Source: Enchytraeus crypticus
Taxonomy: Eukaryota; Annelida; Clitellata; Enchytraeida; Enchytraeidae
Direction of reading: 5' to 3'
DNA: 64,000 nt
Assembly: GCA_905160935.1 (NCBI GenBank)
Contig: CAJHZI010000415.1
Location: forward strand, 1,107,001-1,171,000
Shown: one piece after another, positions 2,772-63,045 of the stretch
How positions within the stretch are numbered: position 1 is the first letter of the stretch
Layout: every line of letters starts with the position of its first letter
The notes under the pieces: generated by a model
Seen by the model: only the letters and a program-made list of their open reading frames with translations
What the model was told of the DNA's origin: nothing
The model's database searches: none
Position numbers and translations under genes: made by a program

Positions 2772-5700
2772 TCATCTGCACACTTTTATCCCATAGTACT
2801 CCAGGTCAGCTGTGCTCACAGGTGCTGGAGAACCCGACATCAAACATTTCCCTTCAGAGGTTTTAGGAAACGCTATCACGTCTCTCACAGTATCACGCCC
2901 GCACAGCTGCGATATAAGTCGATCTAGTCCGAGGGCAATGCCGCCATGAGGTGGGCACCCAGAATCCAGCGCGGTCAACAGATGGAGCAGCTGTGCATCA
3001 TCCTCGCGCAGTATCTCGCGCAGGACGTATCGCTGAAGCTCTGCGTCGTGGATTCTAATAGACCCGCCCCCCACCTCCGAGCCGTTGAGAACGAGATCAT
3101 AGTGCTGGCTCCTCACCCTGCCTGGGGCGGTCTTTAGCAGGTGCGCGTCATCGGGGTGGGCGGCGGTGAACGGGTGGTGAGCTGATTCCCACTGAGATCC
3201 TCCATCACAGGCAGAGTGTTCCAACTCTGAGGGCAGGAAGAGAGGAAAGTTTTCAACCCAGAGAAAATTCATCCGACGAGGTGTGGTTGAGTCTCCGACG
3301 TCACGCGGGTGAGTCTTGGCACGCGTTTCAGTTCGGAATCGACCAGCGGTTAGACAGGCCTCGACCGTTTGACCGGCTACCACAGCAAAGACCTTCCCAG
3401 GAGAGAGCTGCAGTAGTCTAGTAATCTCAGAAACAGTTGAACTATCTAAGTGTTTCCTAAGACCTCCCGTCCAGCTGTTATCTTCTTTCACCTTACATAC
3501 CGCAACAAGGTTCACTGCAGTGCTGCCATTTCTCTTACTGAAAGTTCTCACAGTGTTACCGATTACCTCTAAATCGCTGCGACTTAAAGCTGCCACGTCG
3601 CTAGCAGGAAAAACCACAGCGTGAACACTCTGCGAGCACGACAGCGGCTCAAAGCTGCAGCCACGCAGCGCCTGAGTTACGTCAACTAGCCTTGACTCAA
3701 ATCTGGTATCTGGTTTGTCGCTGCCGTAGCATTTCAAAGCGTCCTCGTAGTTGATGCGAGGAAATGGAACCTCTAGGGGAGGTAAATTCAGTCTAGAACC
3801 CTGAAGCATGTATTCCTCATCTTCCTCTTTCTTCCACCCCTGCGTCGTACCTCTGTTTATATTATCAAGAGTGCCGACTACGCCGGAAGTTTTTGGCCAA
3901 TCAAGTGTTGCGTTGTCTTGATTGACAGCTGCTGAAGTCCTGCCCATACTGCTGTGAGAGCCAATGACAGGCCAGCAGTGGGCCAGCAGTTGTTCAATGA
4001 GATTCATTATTTGTGGCTGAGTGATGAAGGACATTTCTATATCTAGTTGAGTGAATTCAGGCTGTCGATCCGGCTTAGAACTCTCGTCCCTATAGCAGCG
4101 AGCAATCTGTCACATCAATCAATCAATCAATCATACAATCAGTCAGTCATCCAATCAGTCGTCAAATCATCCCTGTAGCAGCGAGCAATCTGTCACATCA
4201 ATCAATCTATCAATTAATCAATAAATTATACAATCAGTCATCAATCAGGTAACAATCAATCACTCAATAATATGATCATTCAATCAAAAAACATTTCTAT
4301 ATCAAGTATTGTAGGGCCATAGGACTTGGCTTTCCTTTCAGAGTTTGATAACAAAGATCATGTTTAAAATCAAAATGTGAAGCCTTGCGACTATTAAACA
4401 TTCCTACAGACATTACTATTGTCATTATTGTAGAATTTGTGCTATCCTTTACTGCTTTGTTGTTCGTTTAGATTCAGTAGATATACAAGCTAAGATCTCT
4501 CTCTAGCCTGCATGTATCAATCAGATATAACCATAGATCTCTCTCTATCCTGTATCAATCAGATATAACCATAGATCTCTCTCTATCCTGTATCAATCAG
4601 ATATAACCATAGATCTCTCTCTATCCTGTATCAATCAGATATAACCATAGATCTCTCTCTATCCTGTATCAATCAGATATAACCATAGATCTCTCTCTAT
4701 CCTGTATCAATCAGATATAACCATAGATCTCTCTCTATCCTGTATCAATCAGATATAACCATAGATCTCTCTCTATCCTGTATCAATCAGATATAACCAT
4801 AGATCTCTCTCTATCCTGTATCAATCAGATATAACCATAGATCTCTCTCTATCCTGTATCAATCAGATATAACCATAGATCTCTCTCTATCCTGTATCAA
4901 TCAGATATAACCATAGATCTCTCTCTAACCTGTATCAATCAGATATAACCATAGATCTCTCTCTATCAATCCAGATATCAATCAGATATAACCAGAGATC
5001 TCTCTCTAACATGTATCTATTAGATACAACCAGAATTCTCTCTCTAACCTGCATGTACCTATCAATCGCTCCGACCATCAGAAGCTGTTTAAACTGCTGA
5101 GGACTCTGAGGAAGAGAATAGAACAATCCTCTTCCATCTTCCCCCTCCCCTTCTTTCCTACTCCCCTCCTCCTGCCCCCCTAGTCTCTCCCCACCCTCCT
5201 CCCCCGCCCTGGACCCACAAGTGGTCGGCACAATGAACTCCCTGGCACCTCCGGGTGTCCTGCGGAACAGAGTGGGTGTCTCCACATCGACGAATGCGTG
5301 CCGTTGAACGAGGAAGCTCCGCATGCGATGTATTAGCTGTGAGCGGAAGCGCAGATCTGACTGCAACTGTCGTCCTCTCATCTCGATGTAGCGGTGACGA
5401 AGTCGCAGAGATTCCTTGATCTTGTGGTGGTCGTGGACCTGAACAATCAATCAAAAAATCAAACAATCAATCAATCAACTAGATTGGCATGTACAAATAT
5501 CATATATACCAGGACCAGGTATATACTAGATTTACACTAGATAATTATATACTAGACATATACTAGATATATACCAGACATATGTTGGTGTCCTGCTCGA
5601 TGACCTTAGGGCTCCTCAGGAAGACACAAATGATTGTTCACTGTCACAGTTTATTGTATACTGTTGTGCCATTTAGTAAAGTGTAGTGGTTTGAAATAAA

Positions 5701-6787
5701 TAAATCAATAATACAAAAAGTAAAATAAATAATAATAATAATTAATAATAAGAAAAAATTATATAAAATACCTATATCTTACTTTGACTAGATTAAATGA
5801 CATGTTATGCCTATATACGCTTATCTATAGAGACAGTTCATTTAATCATTTAACAGTCAATTAAAATGTTTTGCCTCTTAATTCTTAATAAAAAAATTAA
5901 AAGCTTTGCAGATCATTATTTAAAAAAAATATGCCCTTATAATTGTCTGTATGGAAATATATATTAGTCAAAATATTCAATATTTCACAAATAATAAGAT
6001 GATACCGCAAGTATAGTTTCAAAGTTTATCAAATATTTTTATAAACCTGGAATGGTAAACTGGGCATGCATTCATTAAGAACTTCTAGAGTCTCCACCAC
6101 CACTTCCACATCTCCTGTCACCATATTTTTGTTCTCTTGTCCTTCTGGTCGCTGCCTTACCAAACCCTCCACCCTGATAACAGATTCTAGCGGAATACTG
6201 CCAAGTTTTTCCAGCAGGCCTGATTTATTCGGAGGAACTACAACTTGCACGCTGCCTATAGCGTCTCGCAATATCACAAACTGTCCACTCATACGCAGAT
6301 GCTGAATCCATCCAGACAATATAACCCTGCTGCCTACATCATTGACACACAGCTCTCCACACATATGAGTCCTTTCTGTGAAGCTTGTTCTTCTTTTAGC
6401 ATTATTATCATCAGATGTTGAATGGGAAATGAAATCATTGCTTGCCACTGAAACAGAAGACCTTAGTTTTGGCGCCCCTACCTTCCCATCACTGAAGCGC
6501 CTGGAGTTAAAGACAGAACTTATACCTTTCATTGCGCTCACACCTGTACTTTTGTCATTAGATATCGCAGCTGATGAAATTGACTTACAGCTATAAAACC
6601 TAATACAAACAGTGTCCCAAAAACTTGTTGCCCTGCATTTAAACGACTTGTCAAGCACATGACTTGCCGAAGTTGATACTACTGATCGATAATTAGGAAT
6701 ATTTGAACACCACGCAGACAGAATGTCAATGTTTTTATTAAATTTCGTCACGGTTTGTCGGTATCTCAGCAACATGGGCGCCGCCAT
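2772..6787 (-). CDS. DARS2: mitochondrial aspartyl-tRNA synthetase, three exons
   Basis: The enzyme charges tRNA-Asp (and tRNA-Asn in bacterial-type enzymes) in mitochondria. Exons on the minus strand are 6787-6047, 5438-5049 and 4106-2772. All junctions are in phase 0 with GT-AG borders, giving about 821 aa (human about 645). Residues 1 to about 145 form a basic, Ser-rich presequence and extension. Residues about 150-245 are the OB-fold anticodon-binding domain. Class II motif 1 ([17 protein letters not shown]) is near 300, [10 protein letters not shown] near 358, motif 2 (IARCYRDE...[11 protein letters not shown]) at about 378-401, and motif 3 ([10 protein letters not shown]) at 765-774. 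The DRQPEF and AFPK signatures fit bacterial/mitochondrial AspRS. Two insertions are odd: an acidic Gly/Glu loop (about 321-350) before FYSLPQ, and a low-complexity insert (about 428-490) before [11 protein letters not shown]. The first ATG lies in AATGGCGGC. Confidence 0.95.
4107..4300 (-). repeat. DARS2 intron 2: duplicated exon 3 acceptor and (CAAT)n
   Basis: The exon 3 start and acceptor (TGACAG/ATTGCTCGCTGCTA on the minus strand) occur at 4091-4113. They recur almost unchanged at 4170-4192, each followed in plus orientation by ATCAATCAATC and then ATACAATCAGTCA. This is a tandem duplication of about 80 bp covering the splice acceptor and the first codons of the exon. Confidence 0.8.
4490..5048 (-). 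repeat. 38-bp minisatellite seeded on the DARS2 exon 2 splice donor
   Basis: There are about 14 copies; the plus-strand unit covers ATCTCTCTCTATCCTGTATC and the 18 bases after it. On the minus strand each unit carries GATTGATACAGGATAGAGAG. The exon 2 end and donor read GATTGATAGGTACATGCAG/GTTAGAGAG, a close relative. The unit near 4930 keeps CAG/GTTAGAG. The outermost copy near 4505 reads ACATGCAGGCTAGAGAG, closest to the exon edge. Most internal copies have CAG/GATAGAG, with the GT lost. Confidence 0.85.
5439..6046 (-). other. DARS2 intron 1
   Basis: AT-rich intron sequence with a GT donor at 6046 and AG acceptor at 5439. It holds a short (TATACTAGA)-like repeat near 5516-5580 and (TAA)-rich runs near 5700-5760. 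No further exon is seen. Confidence 0.75.
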
Positions 6788-6799
6788 TGTACAGGAAGT
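6777..6799 (-). promoter_or_regulatory. DARS2 start region: ETS-like site and TISU/YY1-like initiator
   Basis: On the minus strand ACTTCCTG (ETS core GGAA on the other strand, 6792-6799) lies just upstream of ACAATGGCGGC (6780-6790), which contains the start codon. ATGGCGGC is the core shared by YY1 sites and the TISU element of very short 5' UTR mRNAs. The bases before ATG match TISU only partly. Confidence 0.4.
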
Positions 6800-6829
6800 A
6801 CTAAATCAATAACAATGTGTAAAAGGTAA

Positions 6830-7780
6830 ATAACCTAAAATTTATTAATGTAAACTAGTAATAATAATAACTACAATTAGAGTGCTAGCGTCTTTATTAG
6901 GCCAACAACGTACGTGCGATATGTAGCTAAAAATTAATTTGCCTGAATATAGATAACGCATTATCTGACACATAATTAGAAAAGAATGAAGATTTAGACT
7001 AGGACCTGATCTATATGGGGTCAGGGGCCCGTGACCCCAATTGCTAGGCCTGTCCATATAAACTGCAATCTGTAGGTTTCTGTCTCCAAGAAGCCGTGTT
7101 CTTGGATGCTTGTATGTGTGAATATGTGCGTTGTGTCTAAGAGTAGGAAAGGGTGTGAGTAAAAAGCTTTGAACTCGAGATCGGCTCTGTCAAGTCTGTC
7201 AAGGTGAAGGCGTGGGTGTAAGTAGCAAATGTGGACGTTGCTGCTGTTGGACCACTTGTCAGCAGTAAATAACACTTAATTCCGATGTATTTAGAAAATA
7301 GCAATTAGATAAGAAAGATCTAGTATTATACACTGTACTCTGATTGAAAGAATTACCAATTGTCTAATTGATTTACTAACAGAAATATGAATTGATTTAC
7401 GGACGGATTAATTGACTGATTTCTCGTTTAATTGATTGACTGATTGCTGGTAAACATGCGCAAACATTATGGACTGATTGTTGGTTAAATTGATTGGCTG
7501 AAAGCTTGTTAAATTAATTGACTGATTGATGATTTAATTGACTGACTGATTGCTGGTTTGATTGTTTGACTGATTGATAAACTAATTACAGTAATTGATT
7601 GATCGAAGTGGTAACGTCCAAGGCGCTAAGCTATCCCGATTAGAGCGTGTATTTAGCATAGACGACGAGGATGTTTAAACAGGAAGTCTTCAAGCGGAAT
7701 TAGGATCGACTGGATCGATACACTGAAGGTTTTTACCAGAGAATCGAGTTAAGCAGACAGCGCCGAGAATATAAGTCGAT
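6830..7780. other. 5' flank of DARS2, no gene recognised
   Basis: The open frames here carry no recognisable motif. Positions about 7340-7610 are rich in diverged ATTGATTGACTGATTG units, the same simple motif found beside several splice sites elsewhere in the window. Confidence 0.5.
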
Positions 7781-7784
7781 TCAC

Positions 7785-8095
7785 GTGGGTTTAGGTTCAC
7801 GTAAGTTTAGATTCACGTAGGTTTAGGATCACATGGGTTTAGGTTCACGTGGGGTTTGGTTCACATGAGTTTAGGATCACATGGGTTTATGTTCGTGTGG
7901 GTTTAGGTTCACATGGGTTTATGTTCATGTGGGTTTAGGTACACCTGGGTTTAGGTTCAGGTGTGTTTAGGTTCACTTTGGTTTAGGTTCCTGTGGGTTT
8001 AGGTTCACATGGTTTATGTTCACACACGGGTATAGGTTCACTTTGGTTTAGATTTACATGGGTTTTGGTTCACGTGGATCTAGAGGTTCACATGG
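7785..8095. repeat. 16-bp minisatellite, GGTTTAGGTTCACATG type
   Basis: About 19 diverged copies of a unit close to GGGTTTAGGTTCACAT. Divergence between copies is high, so the array looks old. Confidence 0.85.
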
Positions 8096-8990
8096 GTTCG
8101 ATTCCTATATTAACAGATATCTGAGAGATAGCTAGCGAAGACAGACGGATGAGTAATTGTTTAATCTGCCGCATGATATCGCAAATGTAAGGATAGGTTA
8201 ATATAAGTTGAAGGAATGAGATGACTATGATACGATTAGAGAATAAACACGAAATAAACAAACAACACAAAATAAACACAAATAAACGAATATAAACACA
8301 ATAAACGAATATCAACACAAATAAACGAATATAAACACAAATGTTAACCCCTGTATAAAGAAGTCTTTCTTGGCAAGCTTACATATACATTTGTTTACTA
8401 GAAAACCATTTATAAATACATCAATGTTCATGGTAAATAAGTAAACTGTATGTGAGATACTTCTACACCAATAGTCTCATGCTACACACTTCCTACAGTC
8501 CTACTTAATCACGAGACACACCTAAATACACGTACAGTTGTTCACACACACCCTCACGGTCTCACCGCCGTTACTGCCACGGTGATGGTTACTAGAAACC
8601 GAACGTGTTATATGTTTTACTTAGCGCAGAATTCGGTGATTTACAAAATTGGGACAAGATTCAGGCAATATTGCTACTTCCGGTTGAAGGCTTCCGGTTA
8701 AAAGAGGACCGACTAAAACTATCGTCGAGCTGATCAGGATTTCCGTTTAGAGTAGCGAGGATTTAGTGTGTTTAGAGCACCGGGCTACTTTTAAGTTATA
8801 GGAGAACACTTCGGCGAGTCAAATCTTCGATCAGGTTCTAGTAAATCGCCTTACAGGCAGTTGACGGAGAGTTTCGTCGACTCTCCTTTCATTTCTTTAT
8901 CCGAGCCAGTGATTAAGCCATTGAGCAGAGCATGGTAGGATTCAATCAGCTAGGATATGGCGTGATTTAAGATCTAGTAGCAACACGAGA
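8096..8990. other. unique stretch, no gene recognised
   Basis: Positions 8240-8345 hold about four copies of an AATAAACGAATATAAACACA unit. The rest shows no recognisable exon or mobile element. Confidence 0.5.
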
Positions 8991-8994
8991 TCAG

Positions 8995-9272
8995 CTGATT
9001 AGAGCTTGTGACAGCTGTTAACAACTGATACGAGTTTGTGACAGCTGTTAACAGCTGATAAGAACTTGTGACAGCTGCTAATAGCTGATAAGAACTCGTG
9101 ACAACTGTTAACAGCTGATAATAACACGTTATAGCTGTTAACAGCTGATAAGAACTTGTGGCAGCTGTGGTCAGCTGCTGTGAACAGCTGCTGTGAACAG
9201 CTGCTGTGAACAGCTGCTGTGAACAGCTGCTGTGAACAGTTGCTGTGAACAGCTGCTGTGAACAGTTGCTGT
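8995..9272. repeat. CAGCTG-rich tandem repeats, two adjacent arrays
   Basis: The first part (about 8995-9170) repeats a 30-bp unit containing GACAGCTGTTAACAGCTGAT. The second (about 9171-9270) repeats the 12-bp unit GAACAGCTGCTGT about eight times. The palindrome CAGCTG, an E-box core, occurs in most units. Confidence 0.85.
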
Positions 9273-9534
9273 GACACAGATCGATAGAGCTAAACTACAT
9301 GTACGAATAGATGTAGTATTATAGTATTAAAGGAAGACATTTGATAAATATATGTAGTATTATAGTATTAAAGGAAGCCATTTGATGGTATAGCAATGAC
9401 GTTAAGCTCTCAGGAATGAAGCTCTTGTGAGGATTACATGACGAATCCTATTACGAGTCTTACAGTTAAAATATTACATTTAGCACGAACGATGCCAGTG
9501 TAGCAGTGTAATTTAATCGAATGGAAAAGTCTCA
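9273..9534. other. short direct duplication in unique sequence
   Basis: ATGTAGTATTATAGTATTAAAGGAAG occurs twice in a row, near 9308 and 9352, spaced about 44 bp. Nothing else is recognised. Confidence 0.55.
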
Positions 9535-9665
9535 AATAGGGGATTGGCTGGTGGTGTGGTGAAGGACAGAGAGAAATTGAGACAGTCTGTTTGTATCCCG
9601 ACCCTGGTTAAACTGGGATTCAAGGGAGGATGAAGATGATGATGATGACGATGATGATGATGATG
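9535..9665 (+). mobile_element. LINE-B 3' end fragment with (GAT)n tail
   Basis: Sense copy ending in AACTGGGATTCAAGGGAGGA followed by (GATGAT)n. It matches the 3' end of the 2.2-kb copy in reverse. Confidence 0.7.
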
Positions 9666-25489: not shown

Positions 25490-25695
25490 TTGAATATCAG
25501 CTTAACCAGAGTCGGGATACACATGGACCTTCTTTTCCATTCGGTTTATAAAATTTCATAGCAATTCTTTAACCTAGCGGTCGCCAATAGAGTACCATTT
25601 CTGACGTTGGTGTGGTTTTAGTGCTTTATCGCCTTTACGACACGTGCAGTACACGGTTGGTCGATTCTTCAGCAACCCAGACACAACAGTGGTAA
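25490..25695 (-). mobile_element. LINE-B 3' end fragment
   Basis: Minus-orientation copy, including GAGTCGGGATACACATGGAC and CAGTACACGGTTGGTCGATT on the plus strand. A second copy follows directly. Confidence 0.65.
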
Positions 25696-25990
25696 TGTAT
25701 CATCATAATCATCATCATCTTCCCTTGAATTCCAGTATGACAAGGGTCGGGATACGAATAGACTGTCTCAAATCCTCTCTGTCCTATATCATATCATCCA
25801 TAAGCCAATCCCCTTTTTGAGACTCTTCCATTCTTTGAAATATTTGAAGCAATTTCTGGCGCCTTGGCGATCGCCAACCGAATTCTCTTTCTGACGTGGT
25901 GTGAATCTTAGTGCTTTATACGCCTCCTACGACACGTGCAGTCACCGGTTGGTCAATTCTTCAAACAACCGAGACACAACACGGGGAAAC
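25696..25990 (-). mobile_element. LINE-B 3' end fragment with (GAT)n tail
   Basis: Nearly the longest copy of this end in the window. On the plus strand: (CATCAT)n, GGGTCGGGATACGAATAGAC, AATCCCCTTTTTGAGACTCT, GTCACCGGTTGGTCAATTCT and GACACAACACGGGGAAA. Confidence 0.75.
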
Positions 25991-26014
25991 AGTGATAATA
26001 CTAAAATATATAGG

Positions 26015-41300: not shown

Positions 41301-42517
41301 AAAAAACTACAAAAAACAGAAACTTAAGAAAGGAAATATTGTAAACACATGCGGTATGTCATGTGTGTAACTATACGGAATAATAAAAGAAAATGAATAA
41401 GATGTTTCGTTTTGATTTTGAATGATTGATGAGATGAGAAGTGTCTGGTGCATTTATGTTCATTGATATGATTTTTGCATGATGTGTCTGCATGCTGTGA
41501 TTGCTCTTATAGTTTTACTTTGGTTCTAATAAGCAGACATTTGCATTTAAATTGATTCCAGCTGTGTAATTATTGCTCTACTGACTTTTCACAATAATCT
41601 GCACCAATGCTTTCAGTTTTAAATGTGATTTAGTATTTTAGTTATCTTGTAAATGAACAGTTGTGATTTATTTATAACCAACAGTGATTGATATACTAAT
41701 TTGTTATATGTTATTTATCATAACCATATTGACCAACTTCAACTGAGATATGATAAGCATGATATCGATGAACTGTCGTTGATTGACTTGAATGAAGCTA
41801 TTGATTGATTTGGAACAAAAGGAATTGAGGAATTAATTGACTTGAATGAAGCTATTGATTGATTTGGAACAGCAGGAGTTGAGGAATTGATTGACTTGAA
41901 TGAAGCTATTGATTGATTTGGAACAGCAGGAACTGAGGAATTGATTGACTTGAATGAAGCTATTGATTAATTTGGAACAGCAGGAGTTGCGGAGTCCCGG
42001 TGGTTCCTGCCTCATCACCTACACGTGGAGTAACTTTCTCCTCATTCTCACCCTCAAGGTCACTGACTGCATCGCCTCCAGTAACTACCTCGCCAACTTC
42101 TTCCTCTACTGCCTCTGCGGCTCCTACTTCAGGCAGCAAATCGTCGCGGTGTTCAGGGGACAGCGCAGGCGCAGCTCTACCGCCTGCAGCGCCACACGGT
42201 CACCTGGCCGGCCTGGAGATAGGTTTAGAACGACCGTGGACGGGAGGACCAGGGAAAGTCGGGCATCGTCGATTCTGGGCTCGTTGAGTCGGCTGAGCGG
42301 AGGGGATTTAGGAGCGGAGATGAGGTCAGGGAGTGAGGAGAGGTGGAAGAGGTGGAGTTTAGTGGACGGGAGATTGAGGGGATGCAGTCCTAAGGTCGTT
42401 ACTAGAGGTCATTGCATTGCAGGTGTTACAGCGAGATCAAGTTCATCGGATTGCGCTCGGTCCAGTTTATCTACAGCTAGATCTAGTCTATCCACAGCTA
42501 GATCTAGTCTAGCTTAA
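35359..42517 (+). CDS. class A (rhodopsin-like) G protein-coupled receptor with giant intracellular loop 3, four exons
   Basis: Exons 35359-35811, 36541-36671, 39308-40880 and 41984-42517 join in phases 0, 2 and 0 with GT-AG borders to about 896 aa. TM1 has GLLCN, TM2 LAALACAD, the extracellular Cys precedes TM3, and TM3 ends in LERLL in place of DRY. TM4 (exon 2) lacks the usual Trp. Exon 3 begins with loop 2 Cys residues (RCAINKGSERCYAIW) and TM5 (about 218-237). Loop 3 runs from about 238 to 690: Ser/Asn/Asp-rich, without a known domain. TM6 has AFVLLRLPYT in place of CWxP. TM7 ends NYLANFFLYCLCGSYFR, where NPxxY has lost its Pro. These traits occur in FMRFamide/myosuppressin-type peptide receptors, so a neuropeptide ligand is an inference. 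The last 18 residues are encoded by a tandem repeat. The start ATG is the first in frame before a short Asn-glycosylatable N-terminus (NFS, NLT). Confidence 0.85.
35812..36540 (+). other. GPCR intron 1
   Basis: AT-rich intron. Its last 150 bases consist of (ATTG)n-like GATTGATTGAATGATTGA sequence that runs up to the acceptor GATCGCAG. Confidence 0.8.
36672..36964 (+). other. GPCR intron 2, first part
   Basis: Begins GTTGATTGATTGATGG at the donor and repeats AGGAAGCACGA of exon 2 at about 36707-36718 (GACGTGAGGAAGCACGATAC resembles the exon words GAACGTGAGGAAGCACGAGAC). This suggests a small duplication of exon edge into the intron. Confidence 0.6.
36965..37410 (+). mobile_element. possible LTR remnant with primer-binding-site-like end
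   Basis: TGTGGCGGCCGGACGAGCAA at 36971 could start an LTR, CTATAAAAAT at 37149 a TATA box, and TGGTGCCCAGACCCGGGA at 37387 resembles a tRNA-primer binding site directly downstream of an LTR, as in BEL/Pao and Gypsy elements. No CA end or second LTR was found. The frame after the site (37410-37620) shows no clear Gag motif. Confidence 0.4.
37685..37905. repeat. near-perfect palindrome, two 104-bp arms and an 11-bp loop
   Basis: Arm 37686-37789 and arm 37801-37904 are reverse complements with a single mismatch (GTACAAAT against GTATAAAT). The loop is ATGAATCATCT, shrinking to 9 bp if the A/T next to it pairs. It lies in GPCR intron 2, so the pre-mRNA would fold into a long hairpin. Confidence 0.95.
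38010..38815 (+). mobile_element. 5'-truncated LINE-A with reverse-transcriptase C-terminus
   Basis: The 141-codon frame at 38016-38441 carries RT thumb and connection motifs: IMDRLNITALRYSMKINIKK, VKYLGLTLTDD and TLVWTTLLYGCETWTL. Beyond a frameshift near 38435 the rest of the protein continues in other frames: KLEALEMWIWRRME-like, GRMEGKRGRGRPRLG, and EDREEWMRYIPWTC at 38733-38770. It ends CAGTAGGCAGTGCACTAAGA and (GA)n. The YADD catalytic part is missing, so it is dead. It sits in sense orientation in GPCR intron 2 and defines the 3' end found in at least six shorter copies. Confidence 0.85.
38816..39307 (+). other. GPCR intron 2, last part
   Basis: AT-rich. A LINE-A/C-like 3' terminus lies at 39222-39272 (ACGTACCTTGGACTTGCCAT, TTGGCAGAACACTAAAGAAC), ending only 35 bases before the exon 3 acceptor TGTTAATGTAG. 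Confidence 0.65.
40881..41770 (+). other. GPCR intron 3 with a dispersed repeat
   Basis: About 41165-41290 resembles 57150-57250: both contain GGAGGTTATTCTTAAATC/GGAAGGTTATTCTTAAATC followed by CAAAAGGCAACGATTACTAA and TAACCATGGA. The preceding 41065-41165 is GC-richer and tRNA-like in places. The rest is AT-rich intron. Confidence 0.6.
41776..41990 (+). repeat. 54-bp tandem repeat carrying the GPCR exon 4 acceptor
   Basis: Four units, each TTGATTGACTTGAATGAAGC, TATTGATTGATTTGGAACAG, CAGGAGTTGAGGAA. The last unit's CAG is the acceptor used (CAG/GAGTTGCGGAGTCCC). The two before it end in CAGGAGTTGAGGAAT and CAGGAACTGAGGAAT, equally good AG sites that would run into a stop or frameshift. Confidence 0.9.
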
Positions 42518-46716: not shown

Positions 46717-49700
46717 TTAGAAGAGACCAGCTGATGATTCATTACCTTCAGGTTCATTTTCAATTGACGGCCGTTGATTTTCAACATTGGGGGACGGATC
46801 AGTTTGAGGGGCGTGTAAGCCCCCAGGTTCATGCTTCTCCTCGAATGTTTTGATGTCCTCAGTGAATGTGACTCTCTTGCTACTGCGTCTCAAGGTCGCT
46901 GCAGAGCTGTGACAACAATAACAACAATTTCATTTCATTTTTATATCATTTCATTTCATTTTTGTGATGATATGATGTAGGAGAGAGTAGATTTGAGACA
47001 GTCTATTTGTATCCCGACCCCAGCTCAACTGGAATTCAAGGGAGGATGATGATGACGATGAATAAAGAATTAATTTCATCTGAACTATTGATGTTTAGTG
47101 ACTCATACAATACTCATAAATACATTTATTTTAGCTCTAAGTTTGTGATTACCTTTGCACTTGTACGTAGTATACTTTAATTGCATTAATAATCCTTTTA
47201 TTTTAATTTTCTACTTTTAATGAACTAAATCCGGAATATGTAAGCGCTTCCATAGCCTGTATCCTCCGTTCATACAAACATTTCCATAGTTGGTTTTTCT
47301 ATTTGCTTTACCTGCGTTTTTAAATGTTTGATGTGATAAATAAATAAATAATTGATAAATACCTATCATTGGCATTGAGTCCTGTCAGAGAATCATTACT
47401 TGCGTCGTCTGGATTGAGATCACCTTCCTCTACTTGCTGTGATCTCTTCACAATGCTCTTCAACCCCATAGAGTCACCTGGGCTCAGAAACGCCAGGTCT
47501 TCTTCATGAGGAACTGCTCCAATGGGTGCTCTACTGGGTGCTCCACTGGGTGCTCCACTGTGTGCTCCAATGGGTGCTTCACTGGGTGCTCCAGTGGGTG
47601 CTCCACTGTGTGCTCCAGTGGGTGCTCCACTGGGTGCTCCACTGGGTGCTCCAGTGGGTGCTCCAGTGGGTGCTCCAGTGGGTGCTCCACTGTGTGCTCC
47701 ACTGGGTGCTCCAGTGGGTGCTACACTGGGTGCTCCAGTGGGTGCTCCACTGGGTGCTCCACTGTGTGCTCCACTGGGTGACTGATGCTCTGGTAATTGT
47801 TGGGTTGGTTTAACGGCGGCTACTCTTCCTGTCCTCTTCCCACTGAAAGCATTAAACGAAGGATTATATCCGGAATTTCCTTTGGAAAAAATGTCGCCGG
47901 TAAATAAATCATCCTCTGCAGACTTTGGATCGGGATTTGCTGAAGTATTTTTGGTTGGTTCTGATGCCTCGAGGGTTGAAGTTTCAAATCCAGCATTATT
48001 CATCCAAGATGATGACTGTTTGTTTACCGCAAGTGGGCTTGGATTGTCAAAGTTAAAAGAGTCACCAGAACCACTGAAAGGCATTACTACCCGACCCCGG
48101 GCCCTGCTCGTCTTGGGTCGACCAAATATTGGGTCCTCCTCCGCTGATAAATCTTTTTGTTCTTCTTTTGATGCTAAGACATTCTTTGGTTTATTTTCCA
48201 CTTCCGTCACCGTTTTCATGGGATTCGTTTTGAATTTATCGACAGGACTTCGGGGGCTTGCCAGCTTTGGTTCTGGAGTAACCTGACGAGTGGACCATGG
48301 AAACACTTCCTCCTTTCCAACATCCTGCGTGGAATTGTTCTGACCAAAATCTGAGCTACCGCTTACGAACAAAGCGTCTTTGGTACCAGTGTTCAGCTTG
48401 ATGTTGAAGGTTTCGATGATATCGCTTCTATTTCTCGGCGATGTTCTACCAAAGTCTGTCTCCATAGAGCGTTTGTCGTCACCTCTCGAATAGCCCAATC
48501 TCTGGTCTCTCTCGCTCGTCTCGGCCAGTCCAAAGTCAAAATTCTGAACTTTGACTGGCTCAAAGAAACTTTCTTTTCTAGGAGAAGCAGGTGGACTGTC
48601 AGACACTCGCGGTGACTTCGGTCTGTCAGCAAAGTTTTGATCAGGTTTTTGTGGCAGCGAACTCCCAGGAATCTTATACTCTACAGTGGTCGTCTTTCTT
48701 CTTTGCCTTGCAGCACTTGGTGGTCGAGGTTTTGCATTAAGAGGTTTGGTTCTGTCTTTGTCACCTCCATCATTCGTTGACGGCTGTCGTTCAAATCCGT
48801 CATAAGCTGTCACTGTTGTGTGCTTCATTGTGTTAGATCTCGAGCGAGTGAGTGACTTCTGAACGCTACCGTTCCTAGTTGGAAATGTAACGTTTGGTTT
48901 GGGTATATGTTCAGGTTTATAAGAGACCTTCAATGTGTTGGTAGGTTTTGATTGAAGTTTCTTAGCAGGATTTTGATGGGGTTCTGTTATGACGTCCTTT
49001 GGAGAGTGAGATATCTTTTGTTCTACTGATATTCTTCTTTTTCTAGCCTCTACGCTGCTATTTACATTTTCATTTGTTCTTTCTTTTTCCACAGAATTCT
49101 GCGATAAATTTGTACCACTTCTATGTATGCCATTGGTTGGCAGACCACGAGTTAAACGGTCCCATAATGATAGATTGGTATCTTCGGTGTCGACACTGGG
49201 TTTATCAACCGGTTTTTCCGACACTATTCTTTGATTACCTGCATCTGCTGAGTGCCCCCTTTGAGATTTCTTTTCTGAAAGCTTTCTAGTTTTGACGACC
49301 TCATACTTAACTTTTACTCCCTTAGGGTCAGCCATTGTGTAGGACTGATTCAACCAATTTTCCACATCCTTGCGCTTCGATGAAGGCAAATTCACGCCCG
49401 TTTTGTCGACTCTTTCATACTTCACCTGGACAGGTTCCTCTCTTGCAAGAGACTGAAAAGTGTTCTCACGAGTGGGTTTTCTGCTTCTTGGCACTTTCAC
49501 GGGTTCATAGTGAATCCCAGTTTCCAGTGACCTGGAAAGAGGTGGAGCAGATCTTCCCCTTCGACGCTGACTGGGCTCCTCAGAGAACGAATGTCTTCTT
49601 CCAACATTTTGCACAGCTTCCTTCTCTTCTTTCTTCTTCATCGCTTCTTCTCGCTTCTTCTGTTCCAGCCAATGCTGCACCTGTTCCCTCGACTCCTGTC

Positions 49701-52700
49701 TTCTCTTTTCCCTCTCCTTTTCCATCCTCTCTTGCTCTTGGCGCTCACGTCTTTCCACCTTCGCCTGCTCCCTGCGCTTCTGCCGCAACATCCGGTTCTT
49801 CCTGCGCAGCCACTTCCGGAGATCATCCCGATGATCTGGATCAGCGTCCACTGGTCTGAGGTGGTAGTCAGAAGAGCGGTGTCTCGGACTCGATCCCGGA
49901 GATGCCGACTTGCTTCTCTTCTTCTTTCCAGAACTACTGCCGCTACTACTAGAAGAACTTGAGCGAGATTTAGAACCGTCAGATGATGATGAGGAGGATG
50001 AAGATGATGATGATGATCTTGATCGACTTCGTGATTTATCAGATGCAGAACTTTTCTTGGAATGACTGCTGCCTTTATCCGACTCGGAATCTGTTCCGGA
50101 TTTATTTGATTTCCTGGTTTCATCATCAGATCCTTTCCCACTGGAATTCTTATCAGTTTCATTATCATTCTTTGACTTACGAGGGCTACTCTTCTTTTTA
50201 TTCATTCTCTTCTTCTTATTCTTCTTATTCTTTCTTTTCACTAAGTTATCATCGAGTTTTTGGAGTCTAATTTTATCTCTCGCTTCGTTTGTCTTCTTCT
50301 TTCTTCTTCTTTCCTCTTCTCTCTCTTCCCTTCGCTTCATCAGCTCTTGTTCCTCATTCTTCCTCCGCAGACGCTCGACAAGCTGAGCCACTGTCTCTTC
50401 GCCCTTGACCGCTGTCTTGTGGTACTTGACGCCCTCAGTAGAGCCATTGAACGTCACGTGCTTAGAGGCTTTACCAGTCCTTCCAGCTACACTCTCATCA
50501 TCTACAACAACAACAACAACAACTAGTGTGACAGCAACAACAACAACTAGTGTGACAACAACAACAACTAGTGTGACAACAACAACAACTAGTTTGACAA
50601 CAACAACAACTAGTGTGACAACAACAACAACTAGTGTGTGCGGCGACGACCATGTCAACATCGAAGACTTTGCAAAGCAATGGCAATTTGCTGTGCATCA
50701 ATTTTTAAAAAAGCTTAAAATTGATAAGTGAAACAAATACAATACTTAAGACTATACACAATACTAAATACAATACAATACGTTGCAATGCTTTAGACAA
50801 TACTATATGCAATGCTATATCTAATACAATATGTTACAATACTTCAGGCAATACTATATGCAATACTATTTCCAATACAATACGTTACAATACCTTAGAC
50901 AATACTATATGCAATACTACATCCAATACAATACGTTACAATGCTTTAGACAATACTATATACCATACTAAATCCAATACAATACGTTACAATGCTTTAG
51001 ACATAAAAGATATTATCAAAAATGTGTTACAAGTTTCAGCTGTTAATATAAAGAAATGTTAGATGTTTCTTCATCTAAATGATAAAGACATGGAAAATGC
51101 ACATAGTGACAAATCAACTACACTACATCGAGTATCTCAGTATCTCAGTATCTCAGTATCTCGACTATCAAATCGGTAAGATACTCGACGCAGATCAGTA
51201 TGTGCGGGGTTCAAATCCTGTGCTCGTCTGTCACTGACATCATTTTTGAGTGAGGAAACTGAGGCTAACCTTAGCTTTAACAGAAATATCTTTCATAACC
51301 CAGTTATAAATAATGCTATCTTTTTTATGTAAACAATGCTACTAATTCCTCCTAGAGGCCAAAGAGGTAGATCGAGACTTATTTGATTAGACAGACGGAA
51401 CTGCAATAGACATTTATCTAACATTTAAATTCACAATGTTAATCAATCACTACAAGCTGTGCTAAATGTATATTTATATAAAATTATATATGTTTAAATA
51501 GCCGGCCTATAGAGTGTCATAATACTTTAGCCAATACTATATGCAATACTAGTACAATACTATATGCAAGTCATCATCGTCATCATCTTCCCTTGAATCC
51601 AAGTTTAACTAGGGACGGGATACAAATAAACCTTCTCCATTCCACTCTGCCCCACATCATATCATCCATCTGTTTACCTCCATTTGAGACAATTCCATTC
51701 GTTTAAATTTTTATAGCAATTTCTGAAGCCTAGGCGCTCACCAACTGAATGCCCTTTCTGACGTTGGTATGGATCTTAGTGCTTAACTCGCCTTCTACGA
51801 CACGTGCAGTCACCCGTTGGTCAATTATTCAAACAACCCGGACACAACAAGGGGAAAAGAGTAGAGTGTAGAGTGTCAAGTAGCGCCATAAAATATAAAA
51901 TTGCCTTTCTGAGTCATAGGTTCAATTATTGGGCGAGATTATTCTAGAATTAAATCAATGGTTTCCACAGGACAAGTGAAATGTAAAATTGATAAACTAC
52001 GCAATAAATTAAACACGAGGCATTAAAACTGATCGATTTCACAATGGATAATTATTTATTAATAGAGGTCATAGAAGGTAGAATGGAAGGCAAAAAGAGG
52101 CAGAGCAGGCCGAGATTAGGTATGTTAGATGTTTGAAGATTAAAGACCCACTCATATGTGGAAGAGGAATGAATGAAGAGGAATGAAGAGTAATGTGGAA
52201 GGCAGAGAAGAGTGGAGGCGTAATATACCATGGACCTGCCGGTAGGCAGTTCACTAAGAGAGAGAGAGAATTATTTCACTGCAAGTATATAAGACTTACA
52301 CTCGAGTATCTCGACAGATGGAGCCACTGACCAGGAATCCTCGCTCAACACTTTCACACTCTCTTCATCCACCCCTCCCCCACCACTCTCCCAGTCACTG
52401 CCACTCTTCTCTAGCCCCGCCCTATTGGCGCTTGCGCTCCTCCCCCTGCGTCTAGGCAGCGCGTGTCGTGGCAGAGACCCGTTAACTGACGCCCACGCCA
52501 GGATTCTACGCTTTTCTATAGCGGTTCTTGTCAGGGGGGAGCCCGTCCCCACCCAGGCAAGTTTAGCGGGAGGAGGGGGGCGGGGGGCTCTGAGAGTAAG
52601 GTCAAGATCTAAGATTTCTTTAAGTTCTCGGTATTTCCTGGCAAGCTTTTTAGAATAGATGTTCGAGATGTCGTTAGATGTCTGCTTGGCACCATTCCAA

Positions 52701-57839: not shown

Positions 57840-57962
57840 TCACTGAGCACTTGCATTACAGCAGACACAGTAGTAATATGGAGCTGCTCTACAGCAGACA
57901 CAGTAGTAATATAGAGCTGCTCTACAGCAGACACAGTAGTAATATAGAGCTGCTCTTAAGGG
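57840..57962. repeat. 33-bp tandem repeat, three copies
   Basis: Unit TACAGCAGACACAGTAGTAA followed by TATAGAGCTGCTC, nearly identical. Confidence 0.9.
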
Positions 57963-57994
57963 CTCCTTATAAATATTTGCTTATACATATTACA

Positions 57995-58030
<36 letters not shown>

Positions 58031-58065
58031 TATATATATAGTAATATATATATATATATATTACT
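57995..58065. repeat. (TA)n microsatellite with interruptions
   Basis: AT runs broken by TTAATA and GTAATA. Confidence 0.95.
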
Positions 58066-58084
58066 GAATATAAAATGTCATATT

Positions 58085-58250
58085 CACACATAAGGTATAA
58101 GGTATGGAATATGGATAAGTCATAGACTTTGTGAAGGGATTAACTTGTTGATCTAAGGAGTGCTGTTATGGAGCGAGAAAACGGACTTTGAGTATGAATA
58201 TGTACCTTGAACCTGCCACTTGGCAGTGCACTGAGGAGGGAAGGATTCAC
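58085..58250 (+). mobile_element. LINE-C 3' end fragment
   Basis: GGATAAGTCATAGACTTTGT, TTATGGAGCGAGAAAACGGA, CCTGCCACTTGGCAGTGCAC, TGAGGAGGGAAGG. Confidence 0.8.
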
Positions 58251-58300
58251 ACATATCAAAAAGGTATGTAGTATTGAAACTTATAGACATTGTAATTGAT

Positions 58301-58420
58301 GGAGAGAGGCGGAGCAGATCTTCCTCTTCGAGGCTGACTGGGTTCCTCAGAGAACGAATGTCTTCTTCCAACATTTCGTACAGCTTCCTTCTCTTCTTTC
58401 TTCATCATTGCTTCTTCGCA
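58301..58420 (-). pseudogene. displaced fragment of the coiled-coil gene exon 3
   Basis: These 120 bases match 49534-49655 in the same orientation with about ten differences and one lost triplet. Shared words include CTCAGAGAACGAATGTCTTC and TTCCAACATTTYGYACAGCT. The source encodes the NVGRRHSFSEEPSQRRRGRS part of the minus-strand protein. The fragment starts and stops within the exon, is not at splice sites, and abuts a duplicated splice acceptor of the next gene. Confidence 0.9.
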
Positions 58421-58553
58421 CGTATTTGTTATTATTTAGATACACTAAGTCAGACATAGACTATGATAGAGTTTAATTTTTGTATCTCTAAGCCAACTGA
58501 TAATTGATAATTTCTATAAAGTTCTACTCCAAAAATTATTTGTTATTACTTAG
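58421..58553 (+). repeat. duplicated splice acceptor and exon start
   Basis: TATTTGTTATTATTTAGATA at 58422-58441 and on to CACTAAGTCAGACATAGACTA at 58463 recurs as TTATTTGTTATTACTTAGAT at 58537 and on to CACTAAGTCAGACATAGACTA at 58577. The second copy continues into a long open exon; the first soon meets a stop (TATGATAGAGTTTAA). Confidence 0.9.
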
Positions 58554-59648
58554 ATACACTAAGTCAGACATAGACTACGACCAATATCTCAGGGGATCCA
58601 ATGAGAGGACATACAGACTGTGTGGACCACCGCCCCCACGTGTGCCCTACCTGCTGTGGCTGGAGGCAGGCCGGCTAGACCCTCTGCTGCTGGCTCACTC
58701 AGCCACTGAGGATGGTTTGTTTTCAGTAAAAATTAAAATAAAATAATAAATATATTTGTTTTCAGTTAAAACATCAAAGTTTAACTACTTTGTGTTTTCA
58801 GTAAAAACATCAAAGTTTAACTACTTTGTGTTTTCAGTAAAAACATCAAAGTTTAACTACTTTGTGTTTTTAGTAAAAATATCAAAGTTTAACTGAGCAG
58901 TTTTTCTCTCAGTAAAAAACATCAAAGTTTAACTACTTTGTGTTTCCAATAAAAATATGAAAGTTAAACTACTGTCTTCTAAAGTTGTCCTCATCATTTG
59001 CTGGATTCGTTTTTATGTTGATATATTTTTATATTACTAAAAATTGTGCCACAATAAAATAAAATTCTTGCAATATTCTGTATAAACTACCAACGTCAGA
59101 AGGGGCATTCAGTTGGAGAGTGCCTAGGCTCCAGAAATTGCTAAAACAATGTAAGCGAATGTAAAAGTCTCAAATAGGGGATTGGCTGATGATATGATGT
59201 AGGAACAGAGAGGATTTGAGACAGTCTATTCTTATCCTGACTCTAGTTAAACTGGGATTCAAGGGAAGATGATGATGATGATTGTGAATATTCTGTATAA
59301 ACTATGTGGCACATTGTTGCTTGTTCTCCACAGCTCCTGGCCCAGATAGAGACTACAACAGCACTCTGTGGCGCAGCTTCAGGCATCAGTACGGAGTTGT
59401 GACGCGTCAGGCGAAGGACGCCGTGTCTGAGGCATTTGCTAACATGTATCCCGTCAGAGTGCCGCCACCTAGCAGGGTTGAGTGTGTCGTTGTTGTTGTA
59501 GTGCCAATGTATCAGCTAATTTAGCATTCAATTAGTAAATAATTCAATTATTATAAGTGAGGCGAGATCCCTCGTGAAGCATGAGCTGTAAAAGTGATGT
59601 CTAAAATATTTAAAATATATGAAAGTTTACTATATATATATATATATG

Positions 59649-59705
<57 letters not shown>

Positions 59706-62700
59706 GTTTGACTACTTATATCATTTAGTATCAATCTTGATATAACCTGTTTACTATTCTTGTTATTAATACTAAGTTATTGATATTCAGTTATTGATAT
59801 TCAGTTATTGATATTCAGTTATTGATATTCAGTTATTGATATTCAGTTATTGATATTCAGTCATTGATATTCAGTTATTGATATTCAGTTATTGATATTC
59901 AGTTATTGATATTCAGTTATTGGTATTCAGTTATTGATATTCAGTTATTGATACTGTAAATTATGCAAGTTTTAAGCAGTGCTATAAATTACATATTATA
60001 TTCATAAGTATAATAGAATAAGTTTTTAAACGTATAATGGTTACTATTTTTTTATAAAGTTTAAAAGTGTATTGATAATTTAATTCAGAAGATATTGATA
60101 CTATCATGCACACACAGGTGGGTGAGGGCAGCCTCACTCAGTACCTGGAGCAGACAGCGCGTATCAAGGGGGCTGATCACCGCTATCACACCGTGCGACG
60201 CAACGAACACATTGACAGCGAGTTTGCTCGACTCAGAACAAAGAGTCAGAGCAGAGTGTCGACGCCGTTTGCAGCACCTGTCAGATCCAGAGAGAGTGTG
60301 GGTGCGTGTGCTCAGTTACTGAGCATTTACTAGTATTTAATTCTACTTTGGACTGATTTTCTGAATATTGGAATTTGCACCACTTGTAGACCTTTCATTT
60401 TGGTCGCCGGCTTGATTTTGACTCAAGAGTGCTCGATGTTTTCATTGACAACTGTAGCACTATAATTATTGTTATGTTATGTTATTTACTATTAGTTCAT
60501 CGTCATCATCTTCCTTTGAATCTCAGTTTAACTAGGGTCGGGATACGAATAGACTGTCTCCAATCCTCTCTGTTTCACACTATATGATCAGTCAATCCCC
60601 TATTTTCATGTGCTTCTTAATCACCGCTTCCCACGTCAGTTTTGGGCAGTAGTATTTACTATTACTTATTATATAATAAACACTGCCGTGGTACTCAGTT
60701 TGATGATCCAGTGCATGGTAGATGATAATCTCTGGTAGATATTTTTACATAGCAATGAGCTGTTTGCTGTTATATATCTTATGTAGTGACGTGTGCTGTG
60801 GGGACGTCCCTGAGATAACCCTTTAATGAGGAAACGGACGGTAAACGTTTATTATTATTATTATTATATTTTTGTTAAATTGCATTGAATTGCGGTTCTA
60901 CTGTAAATGTTTAATGTAAATGTACTTGTCTATAAAACCGGTAGAGGATGGACACAATGGTATATACTAGAGCGGTAGTGCTAAATGTTTTATTGTAGTA
61001 TTTAGTTGTCTTATTTGACAGAGATCTCTTCTTTGATCTGTATATGAGTGTGGTGGTGAGTAGATCTCTAATTATTTGCCTGAGATCTCTGTATTATACA
61101 CTGTTTCACCTTTCATATTGAAGATTTGCTGAGATCCAGTTTGATCTGCTGGGTTCAAATTTTCACTTCTTGACTACTTAGCTTTCTGTCTTATCAGGCT
61201 GCTGTGACATCAGAATAGAGAGCTGCTCAAGAAATGTAGATATTGGTTGGTCTCTACTTTGATACTGTTTGCACTGTGCTCTGTGGTTTATAATTGCAGT
61301 CTGTTTCATGAGTAGCGCTGAGTTTCGGAAGCTCTCTGGAGGATTACAATAGACGTAGCACGACGATGGGTGACCCGTTTTCTAGATATTCCCGGTTCTC
61401 CACCATGCAGCGTACTTCCAAACACTCACCAGATGTCGACTCTAGCTCAGAGTCATCAACCAGCTGCAAGAGGTTGTAACTTCTTAAAGCTGGTAAAGCT
61501 AAGGTTAACGTCAGTTTCTTCACTCGAAAGCGATGTCAGTGACGGGCGAGCCCAGGATTAAGTTATCCCTTAGTAAGACTTTAATTTCAGATGATACCAG
61601 GGTTGCCTTCTCGCAACCGATTGCTGCACATTCAAACTTCTATTGCATGTGTTATTTGCATGTCTTCTAAAAGTCAAGCTCTTGTTCCTTGCTTCGCAAT
61701 CTTCGTTGGCTTCCTGTAAATTAGCGCATAATGTATAAAATAGCTCTGATAACTTTCTAAACTCTGTACTTTGTCTAGACATTTTACATATATGTAAATT
61801 TTGTCTTCCATATCTTCTCTAACATGTGCTTCATTCCACTGATGCCAGTCTTCTCTCTGTTCCAAAAATAAATACTTTGTTCTAGAAAGTAGAACTTGTT
61901 AGAACATTAGGCCTACAGAAATTTTTCGGATAGTCTATTAGCCACAGACAATAAGAATCTTATGGAATGATATCTAATAAGTGCAGAGCAGGGCGTTCAT
62001 CTACCGTTCCTGAATGGGCCGATCAGAGTCGTTGCAGTAAACTGTTTGAATTAAAACATACGTTGATAATATGAGTATAATTTTTAAGTTCCAGAATCGT
62101 TTAATATGATGTGGGCCTGTCGAATAGTTCTACCTTTGTAAAAGAAAGAAAAGTTTTGTGAATAATGAAAGTCTTAAAGTCGAGCATAAAGTTACTAGTT
62201 AGCACTGCTCTAGTCAGAAGAATGCTAGCAGCATGTTATCTCTCACATTGAACACTGGTACTAATTACCAGTCGCTCCCATCGATCTTCATTAAATTGAT
62301 TAATTTGAATTTATTCCGAGTCTTTACCAGTGATGCAAGCCTCTCGTGTTATTTGATAGCTTTCACGTAGACTTTGTTTGTTCATTGACAAATTGATTGG
62401 TGTATTTCAGAAAAGGCTACTCCTATCAACCTATTCTTTCGCCAGACGGCGACGGCTCTAATACGAGGATAGACGTATTCGGCAGGAAGGTGAGGCAGGC
62501 TTCGACCAGCCTGGTCGCAGCCTGGCAGCAGCGTCTCATCGACAGGGTCAAAGAGTCCCAATACAAATGGCGCGACGAATCAAAATGGCCGTTCGGGGGC
62601 GATCCGGATATAGTACCTCGTGTGGAAAAACCCCGTCGTTGGAAACTCCCGCAGACTGAGAAGATGCGGCATGGAACGGCTGTGAGAAAACAGAGGCAGA

Positions 62701-62765
62701 GGATGGAGAGGAAACAGAGAGGGGTTGAGAGTTGTGAGGAGGAAGTGGTAGCGTGTAGTTGCTGA
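58554..62765 (+). CDS. unidentified protein, last four exons (5' part not found)
   Basis: Exons 58554-58714, 59334-59476, 60118-60305 and 62411-62765 join in phases 1, 0 and 2 (the first codon is split, phase 2 upstream), giving about 281 residues to the stop. The third donor (GGTGC/GTGTGC) is weak and an extra exon in the 2-kb last intron is possible. Visible blocks are GPPPPRVPYLLWLEAGRLDP, YNSTLWRSFRHQYGVVTRQA, GSLTQYLEQTARI, GYSYQPILSPDGDGSNTRID and KWPFGGDPDIVPRVEKPRRW. The C-terminus is Arg/Lys-rich and ends in Cys-Ser-Cys. There is no membrane segment or catalytic motif I know. The codon-like pattern and in-phase splices argue for a real conserved gene. A cilia or sperm microtubule-associated role is only a guess from its layout. 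Confidence 0.65.
58715..58975 (+). repeat. 36-bp repeat starting at the splice donor
   Basis: The intron begins G/GTTTGTTTTCAGTAAAAAT; the repeat units that follow read TTTGTGTTTTCAGTAAAAAC then ATCAAAGTTTAACTAC, about six copies. Each unit carries a TTTTCAG word that looks like an acceptor. Confidence 0.85.
58976..59333 (+). other. rest of intron, with LINE-B 3' end
   Basis: A sense LINE-B end occupies about 59090-59282 (CAGAAGGGGCATTCAGTTGG, GATTTGAGACAGTCTATTCT, GGGATTCAAGGGAAGATGAT) and its (GAT)n tail ends about 50 bases before the acceptor TTCTCCACAG. Confidence 0.75.
59477..60117 (+). repeat. intron with (TA)n and a 14-bp minisatellite
   Basis: (AT)n at 59630-59702; 59765-59955 is ATTGATATTCAGTT repeated about 13 times. 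The acceptor is CATGCACACACAG. Confidence 0.85.
60306..62410 (+). other. last intron, with three mobile-element fragments
   Basis: 60495-60650: LINE-B end in minus orientation (TAACTAGGGTCGGGATACGA). 60800-60870: plus-strand SINE-2 module (GGGACGTCCCTGAGATAACC, GAGGAAACGGACGGTAAACG, (TTA)n). 61488-61562: minus-strand SINE-1 tail (GAAACTGACGTTAACCTTAG on the minus strand). I see no additional exon, but cannot exclude one. Confidence 0.55.
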
Positions 62766-63045
62766 GTTATTGATTGACAGGTCGTTCTAATTGATTGACA
62801 AGTGGTTTTAATTTATTAACAGGTGGTTTTAGTAGCGTTTAGTAGCTGAGTCATTGATTGACAGGTGGTTTTAATTGATTGACAGGTGGTTTTAATTGAT
62901 TGACATGTAGTTTTAATTGATTTACAAGTGGTTTTTAATTAATTGTCAGCAGGTTTAATTGATTGACAGGTGGTTTAAATTGATTGACAGGTGGTTTTAC
63001 TTTATTGACAGGTGGTTTTAATTGATTGACAGGTGTTTTTTCTCT
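62766..63045 (+). repeat. ATTGATTGACAGGTGGTTTTA tandem repeat in the 3' UTR or flank
   Basis: About 12 copies of a 21-bp unit. The first unit overlaps the end of the coding exon: TAGCGTGTAGTTGCTGAGTT is echoed 85 bases later as TAGCGTTTAGTAGCTGAGTC. Confidence 0.85.

Follow-up and report, generated by a model that had tools for sequence, protein, structure and literature searches.

Tandem copies of exon edges within introns of the annelid Enchytraeus crypticus

A 64,000-nucleotide stretch of the Enchytraeus crypticus genome (contig CAJHZI010000415.1, positions 1,107,001 to 1,171,000; hereafter the window) contains introns, among them those of DARS2 and of a G-protein-coupled receptor (GPCR) gene, in which the edge of the adjacent exon is repeated together with its splice site. 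Such exon-edge tandem copies are real and frequent in the genes sampled from this genome: junction-spanning copies were found at 20 of 117 acceptors (17%) and 7 of 81 donors (8.6%), or 27 of 198 junctions in total. The copies are local, the clearest ones are arranged as full tandem units, the exon is their source, they decay as non-coding sequence, and they are in excess near acceptor ends. They probably arise by local tandem duplication that is commonest near the 3' ends of introns and is tolerated by splicing.

Exon-edge copies in the window and in the genome sample

The first-pass annotation of the window had proposed that repeats are built from exon edges at several independent introns in unrelated genes. 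Copies were sought within a flank of 400 bp, extended to 700 bp for the two exon 2 donors (DARS2 and GPCR), and the following features are relevant, with array copy numbers and periods taken from Tandem Repeats Finder (TRF).

4087 to 4114, minus strand: DARS2 exon 3 acceptor, its junction between 4106 (exon) and 4107 (intron); the intron side has a TGAT-rich tract
4167 to 4214, minus strand: copy of the DARS2 exon 3 acceptor at a distance of 83 bp, with intact AG and 23 exon bases (score 42)
4483 to 4523, minus strand: copy of the DARS2 exon 2 donor region at the far end of the 38-bp array, 16 exon bases (local alignment score 25)
4513 to 5051, minus strand: 38-bp minisatellite of DARS2 intron 2, its unit derived from the exon 2 end and the intron start (TRF, 14.1 copies; sequence reading)
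5042 to 5063, minus strand: DARS2 exon 2 donor, dividing exon (5049 and above) from intron (5048 and below) (unique placement; tRNA-synt_2 match of the exon)
41779 to 41993, plus strand: 54-bp array with the GPCR exon 4 acceptor at its end; 13 exon bases lie within the repeat (TRF; score 34)
58300 to 58430, plus strand: copy of 49533-49664, directly adjoining the 58.4-kb acceptor copy (blastn, 89.4% over 132 bp; alignment)
58423 to 58466, plus strand: 44-bp copy of the 58.55-kb acceptor and the first 27 exon bases (original 58537-58580, junction after 58553; sequence reading)
58757 to 58973, plus strand: 36-bp array near the 58.7-kb donor (junction after 58714), the donor match holding no exon base (TRF; alignment)
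62753 to 62874, plus strand: stop-codon region and its copy in the 3' untranslated region (UTR); not a splice site

Of the 14 junctions placed in the window, which cover part of its exons, four are accompanied by a local copy that reaches into the exon: in DARS2 the exon 2 donor (junction after 5048) and the exon 3 acceptor (after 4106), in the GPCR gene the exon 4 acceptor (after 41980), and the acceptor of the 58.55-kb exon. The copy of the DARS2 exon 2 donor lies more than 400 bp away and would be missed by a strict 400-bp rule. Repeats from exon edges at independent introns are thereby borne out, although two of the four belong to a single DARS2 intron, one at each end, and the cases therefore do not represent four unrelated genes. 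The other junctions named earlier fared less well. The repeat near the donor of the 58.55-kb exon starts within the intron and contains no exon bases; the repeat at the end of the last exon, at 62.76 kb, is a copy of the stop-codon region in the 3' UTR (62832-62874), where there is no splice site; and the supposed echo of the GPCR exon 2 donor has a best score of 11, within the range of 6-15 seen at other junctions without a hit.

At the 58.55-kb acceptor, the spacing of 114 bp exceeds the homology of 44 bp, and the arrangement is no simple tandem repeat. The 132-bp block beside the acceptor copy duplicates, at 89% identity, a segment of a long reading frame that lies 8.8 kb away; this junction of two copies points to template switching at 58.55 kb. 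The segment 58013-58430 as a whole is a composite insertion, comprising a dispersed repeat also present near 20, 21.3 and 23.5 kb, then the copy of 49533-49664, then the acceptor copy.

Local copies scoring 20-24 or more were also found within 1200 bp on either side of 15-17% of evenly spaced 50-bp positions in the window, so that the window by itself was not enough to dismiss chance placement. The genome comprises 524 Mb in 802 contigs.

Exons outside the window were anchored by Pfam matches to tRNA-synt_2, Myosin_head, SNF, Cpn60/CCT, the nicotinic-receptor ligand-binding domain and the proteasome family, and their splice edges were predicted with a generic splice matrix. A set of 109 exons yielded 99 acceptors and 81 donors, and 19 acceptors of nicotinic acetylcholine receptor (nAChR) genes (20 fetched) and 9 proteasome acceptors (12 fetched) were added later. 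Three tests were run in order: an unfiltered one, which gave no excess, a complexity-filtered one, which gave an excess near exons, and a uniform one without complexity filter, which was intermediate and is the source of the main figures. In the uniform test a 50-bp junction window had to match with a score of at least 20, including at least 8 exon and at least 8 intron bases and an exon identity of at least 75%, to a copy at most 400 bp away on the intron side. One of the 20 nAChR loci, with its edge 77 nt from the match, and one acceptor with a short flank were left out; of the 12 proteasome loci, one had no callable edge and two had edges more than 25 nt from the match. Loci L069/L070 overlap with L073/L071, and repeated exons (L075, L076) were counted once. 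Three doubtful hits, with low complexity or few matching exon bases, are still included in the count (the L054 and L006 donors and the L075_61568 acceptor). Since the families were chosen by us and several exons come from one gene, the acceptor rate of 17% is a sample figure rather than a genome-wide one.

When junctions were paired with introns of other loci, only 5 of 2944 pairs matched, some of these within a single gene family, as against 27 of 198 junctions with their own introns, indicating that the copies are real and local. The listed junction copies (17 acceptors and 7 donors) share 8-79 exon bases at overall identities of 72-98%. An origin in chance words, or in unrelated minisatellites that happen to lie next to exons, would be favored by the abundance of minisatellites (103 TRF rows in the 64-kb window, some of them for the same array) and by the base rate of the window, but the homologies and the mismatched-locus control leave it hardly any credence. 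For the sample as a whole it is refuted by that control; single weak hits may still be chance matches. The proportion in the window (4 of 14) is compatible with that in the genome sample (27 of 198).

Anatomy, direction and fate of the copies

The clearest cases are head-to-tail duplications or arrays containing the intron end and the first exon bases, as in the following junctions.

CCT, L073_1232512 acceptor: 47 exon bases copied
CCT, L078_1375154 acceptor: four copies, 58 exon bases
CCT, L074_926232 acceptor: four copies
CCT, L072_1150187 acceptor: at least eight copies
Myosin, L031 acceptor: four copies, 37 exon bases
Myosin, L027 acceptor: 54 bp, 40 exon bases
nAChR, L093 acceptor: three copies, 53 exon bases
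Myosin, L029 donor: 41-bp array of six units over the donor, like DARS2 exon 2

At least two copies are present at 15 of 23 acceptor junctions, and the spacing from the acceptor to that of the nearest AG-keeping copy is 36-114 nt at 19 of 21. The length of homology equals this spacing to within 1-9 nt at L027, L031, L072_1146052, L072_1151579, L073_1227029 and L073_1232512, and in these six the head-to-tail order of intron end and exon start is clear. The arrays of 38 and 54 bp in the window and the 41-bp array at the L029 donor have tandem units of some 10-100 bp, as is characteristic of minisatellites. Past the end of the copied exon part, the sequence resumes in a simple repeat (ATTGATTG, TTG, TGA or TGTG) in 7 of 18 cases, as judged by eye.

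The direction of copying was deduced from codon positions at 18 of the 23 junctions. Differences from the exon that every copy shares, at junctions with at least two copies, occur at 9 of 143 third positions and at none of 284 first and second positions; this confinement identifies the exon as the conserved source. Private changes of single copies also fall at first and second positions (52 of 935). These substitution patterns show the exon to evolve as a coding sequence and the copies to decay as non-coding ones.

The AG dinucleotide is kept in 52 of 59 acceptor copies at the 23 junctions. This agrees with the earlier suggestion that such copies could lengthen introns and leave decoy acceptors behind. 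The high retention could mean that the copies are kept for use as back-up or regulated alternative acceptors. However, over the 53 copies (20 junctions) used for the identity test, in which the two AG positions are conserved in 52 and 51, the surroundings are 92% (exon part) and 93% (intron part) identical anyway, and conservation of AG well beyond its surroundings was rejected. The nearest AG-keeping copies are in frame at 9 of 21 junctions (p = 0.36), and at 2 in frame and open; selection for frame was rejected, and nothing indicates that the decoys are retained for a coding role. Retention for splicing is therefore highly improbable.

Location of the duplications, TGAT tracts and the proposed mechanism

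In a masked profile of the acceptor side, whose windows overlap and hence are not independent, local copies were found for 15 of 97 junctions. At 8-60, 60-120 and 120-200 nt they were found for 79 of 384, 64 of 383 and 81 of 566 windows, respectively, and deeper in the intron, at 300-400, 400-500 and 600-800 nt, for 35 of 612, 30 of 596 and 91 of 1195. In the exon interior, 60-105 nt from the edge, none of 291 windows of this profile had a local copy. In the corresponding donor profile, 3 of 81 junctions had a copy, and the windows at 60-120, 300-400 and 600-800 nt gave 43 of 321, 23 of 503 and 85 of 986, respectively. In the uniform test the acceptor-side intron gave 92 of 462 (19.9%) at 100-200 nt, 66 of 763 (8.7%) at 200-400 nt and 47 of 733 (6.4%) at 400-600 nt, and the donor-side intron 35 of 324, 37 of 632 and 40 of 603 over the same distances, again in overlapping windows. 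The excess thus extends broadly around the ends of introns; it is most evident at acceptors, stops within the exon and has no peak at the border. The earlier proposal of a process that duplicates exon-intron borders finds partial support in the Pfam-anchored sample insofar as acceptor junctions (17%) exceed the deep intron. It is not supported in that the border is no special target, the intron at 100-200 nt being equally rich, and in that donors, with 8.6% against 5.9-6.6% deeper in the donor-side intron, have no clear excess.

The ends of introns are also marked by a strand-polar simple repeat. In 22 of 127 introns the sense form TGATTGAT falls within 50 nt of the 3' end, compared with 42 of 1453 deeper windows (p = 6.5e-10); its reverse complement does so in none of 127, compared with 12 of 1453. 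Counted by unit, ATTG tracts occur at 24 of 127 acceptors and in 57 of 1453 deeper windows, followed by AATT and GTT with 5 of 127 each; GTT, AG and GT are likewise about four- to six-fold enriched at acceptors, in small numbers. The tract often extends right to the AG, and within the window it is present at the acceptors of DARS2 exon 2 (about 5446) and exon 3 (about 4106). The general branch-point consensus is YTNAY. TTGAT fits it, so that one simple repeat could supply both branch point and tract, and (TGAT)n is possibly a simple-repeat 3' splice signal, to judge from its sequence and placement. An analogy, and no more than that, is offered by the Gomafu RNA, whose tandem UACUAAC repeats bind SF1 (PMC3116199). 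A counterpart at donors, with ATCA pairing with TGAT at acceptors, was considered and dropped: 3 of 81 introns have ATCAATCA within their initial 50 nt, compared with 8 of 1102 deeper windows, too few to support it. An array in the 3' UTR at 62769-63040 has units that read TTGATTGACAGG and resemble TGAT-type acceptors.

Local tandem duplication would operate as follows. Short segments would frequently be duplicated head to tail, mostly within about 200 nt of intron ends and above all at the acceptor end. A unit straddling the exon edge would survive because the spliceosome would keep using the exon-proximal copy, which would stay spliced, so that the outer copies would turn intronic and the protein would be unchanged; selection would purge duplications deep within exons. 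Successive rounds would produce a minisatellite of decoy splice sites and a longer intron. We infer that the exon-proximal copy is the spliced one, and for the molecular step we favor the fill-in of staggered breaks or replication slippage, starting in simple-repeat tracts at 3' splice sites, chiefly (TGAT)n; either would produce the observed anatomy. Tandem duplication via fill-in at breaks with complementary 3' overhangs has been described (PMC8355091), and staggered breaks are invoked for the repeats of new Daphnia introns (PMC4202315). An extended version, in which 3' splice sites are germline duplication hot spots, the strand-polar (TGAT)n acts as branch point, tract and acceptor and also triggers recurrent duplication of the acceptor together with the exon start, and introns in this lineage grow as they accrete decoy acceptors, is conceivable though doubtful.

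Several results weigh against local duplication concentrated near 3' intron ends. The splice edges are predictions, not observations. The homology falls far below the spacing at L013 (40/140), L073_1229230 (40/93) and the 58.55-kb acceptor (44/114), which means that these copies are decayed or are not simple tandem duplications. Private changes of the copies favor third codon positions too (49 of 472, p = 0.0014), which exceeds plain neutral decay; part of this lean may come from exon changes common to some copies. Duplications occur at 6 of 20 acceptors with a TGAT tract and at 14 of 97 without one, which is not a significant difference (p = 0.11), and neither is that between acceptors and donors in the uniform test (p = 0.097). 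The rates in deep introns climb again at 600-800 nt, and in the first, unfiltered test of 88 junctions the junction rate (10 of 88) equaled that of the interior (12.9% of 1760). Finally, the excess near exons may in part be an effect of detection, since exon halves are constrained and exon-edge pairs consequently remain recognisable for longer.

The flat unfiltered result would be expected if duplication were blind and uniform, the excess near exons reflecting detection and selection, with deep introns diluted by mobile elements; the abundance of dispersed repeats is also consistent with this. Many copies are, however, young, as evidenced by their identity of 92-93%, and the acceptor-side intron at 100-200 nt is rich as well, without any exon anchor. 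Blind uniform duplication is accordingly a decidedly weak candidate.

A process coupled to transcription or splicing in the germline, involving for example R-loops, could instead duplicate 3' splice sites specifically, most of all in germline-active genes. It would account for the acceptor-side excess and for the distribution among families. In the uniform test copies were found at 12 of 34 CCT, 1 of 5 aminoacyl-tRNA synthetase (aaRS), 6 of 34 myosin, none of 25 SNF and 1 of 19 nAChR acceptors, and at 3 of 28 CCT, 1 of 2 aaRS, 2 of 26 myosin and 1 of 25 SNF donors; the CCT and aaRS acceptors together (13 of 39) exceed the remaining ones (7 of 78; p = 0.0016), in a comparison made post hoc. In the proteasome acceptors, by contrast, examined with 290 nt of intron each, only 1 of 9 had a copy, against about 30% in a prediction recorded beforehand. 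The figure is 2 of 9 if L109 is counted mechanically by its score; by reading frame it has about 3 true exon bases copied and was not counted. A housekeeping rule was rejected on these numbers. The adjoining intron is, moreover, duplicated as often as the junction, and the acceptor-donor difference falls short of significance, which makes a targeted germline process unlikely.

Other repeats of the window include a dispersed family of about 100-320 bp, present in both orientations and 70-86% identical, with these members.

2182-2495, 9510-9655, 25693-26012, 46965-47066, 51571-51865, 59088-59287 and 60497-60606: dispersed family of about 100-320 bp

At 47515-47780, a 12-bp array lies within a long minus-strand reading frame (47323-50697) and encodes a GAPS/GAPT-type repeat; this frame has weak Pfam matches only (CCDC34, PT repeat). 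Across the genome, matches to the nicotinic-receptor ligand-binding domain number 150 or more, indicating a large expansion. The mollusc haemocyanin family had no match, here or in any control genome.

Relation to known systems and significance

Gao and Lynch reportedly found in 2009 that duplicated intronic and exonic segments are common within genes of eukaryotes. The first-pass annotation knew of no named system that duplicates exon borders; a tandem duplication across an intron-exon boundary has been published for a potato RNA-dependent RNA polymerase gene (PMC4974935). As in E. crypticus, the duplicated potato segment crosses intron and exon and carries 3' splice signals. In potato, however, one duplication made a new intron, whereas here the copies, often in arrays, lie inside a pre-existing intron and occur in many genes.

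Duplication of exonic sequence is a known route of intron gain (PMC3443670, PMC2891723), and the copies might be relics of intron birth. In the model of exonic AGGT segments, a short tandem duplication in a gene likewise re-uses splice signals, but one exonic AGGT copy becomes both ends of the new intron. The units found here already hold the intron end and a pre-existing acceptor, which means that the intron predates the duplication, and in the cases inspected the introns extend past the arrays. The copies show neither the potato pattern, with an intron created out of duplicated sequence, nor introns with both ends derived from one exonic AGGT copy, and birth by duplication has only a slender chance of being the origin of the copies. 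Daphnia neointrons resemble them in repeating terminal exon bases inside the intron, with breaks proposed as the cause, but the Daphnia repeats (PMC4202315) measure 4-12 bp and are found at the far end of a newly gained intron. The copies described here comprise 8-79 exon bases, lie at the same intron end and are thus not of the Daphnia type.

For the favored fill-in step, there is a precedent in CST and Pol alpha-primase, which can produce small tandem duplications where DNA is broken, as shown in cultured cells with Cas9 nickases and with one overhang of 49 bp (PMC8355091). With respect to introners, near-identical introns across many genes, the comparison covered junction windows, which matched the flanks of other loci in only 5 of 2944 pairs.

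What seems to be new is how dense the copies are, their arrangement as arrays of decoy acceptors, and the polar TGAT tract, with the rate known from one genome. No title or abstract found in the open-licence literature described junction-copy arrays at this density or TGAT acceptor tracts; this is weak evidence, as the searches covered that literature only and none was aimed at TGAT.

If the sampled rate holds genome-wide, about one acceptor in six of E. crypticus would carry decoys of itself and of the first bases of its exon. The genome would then be a natural test bed for the choice of the spliceosome among near-identical acceptors and for intron growth, as well as for the question of whether simple-repeat splice signals raise the mutation rate of the genes they serve.

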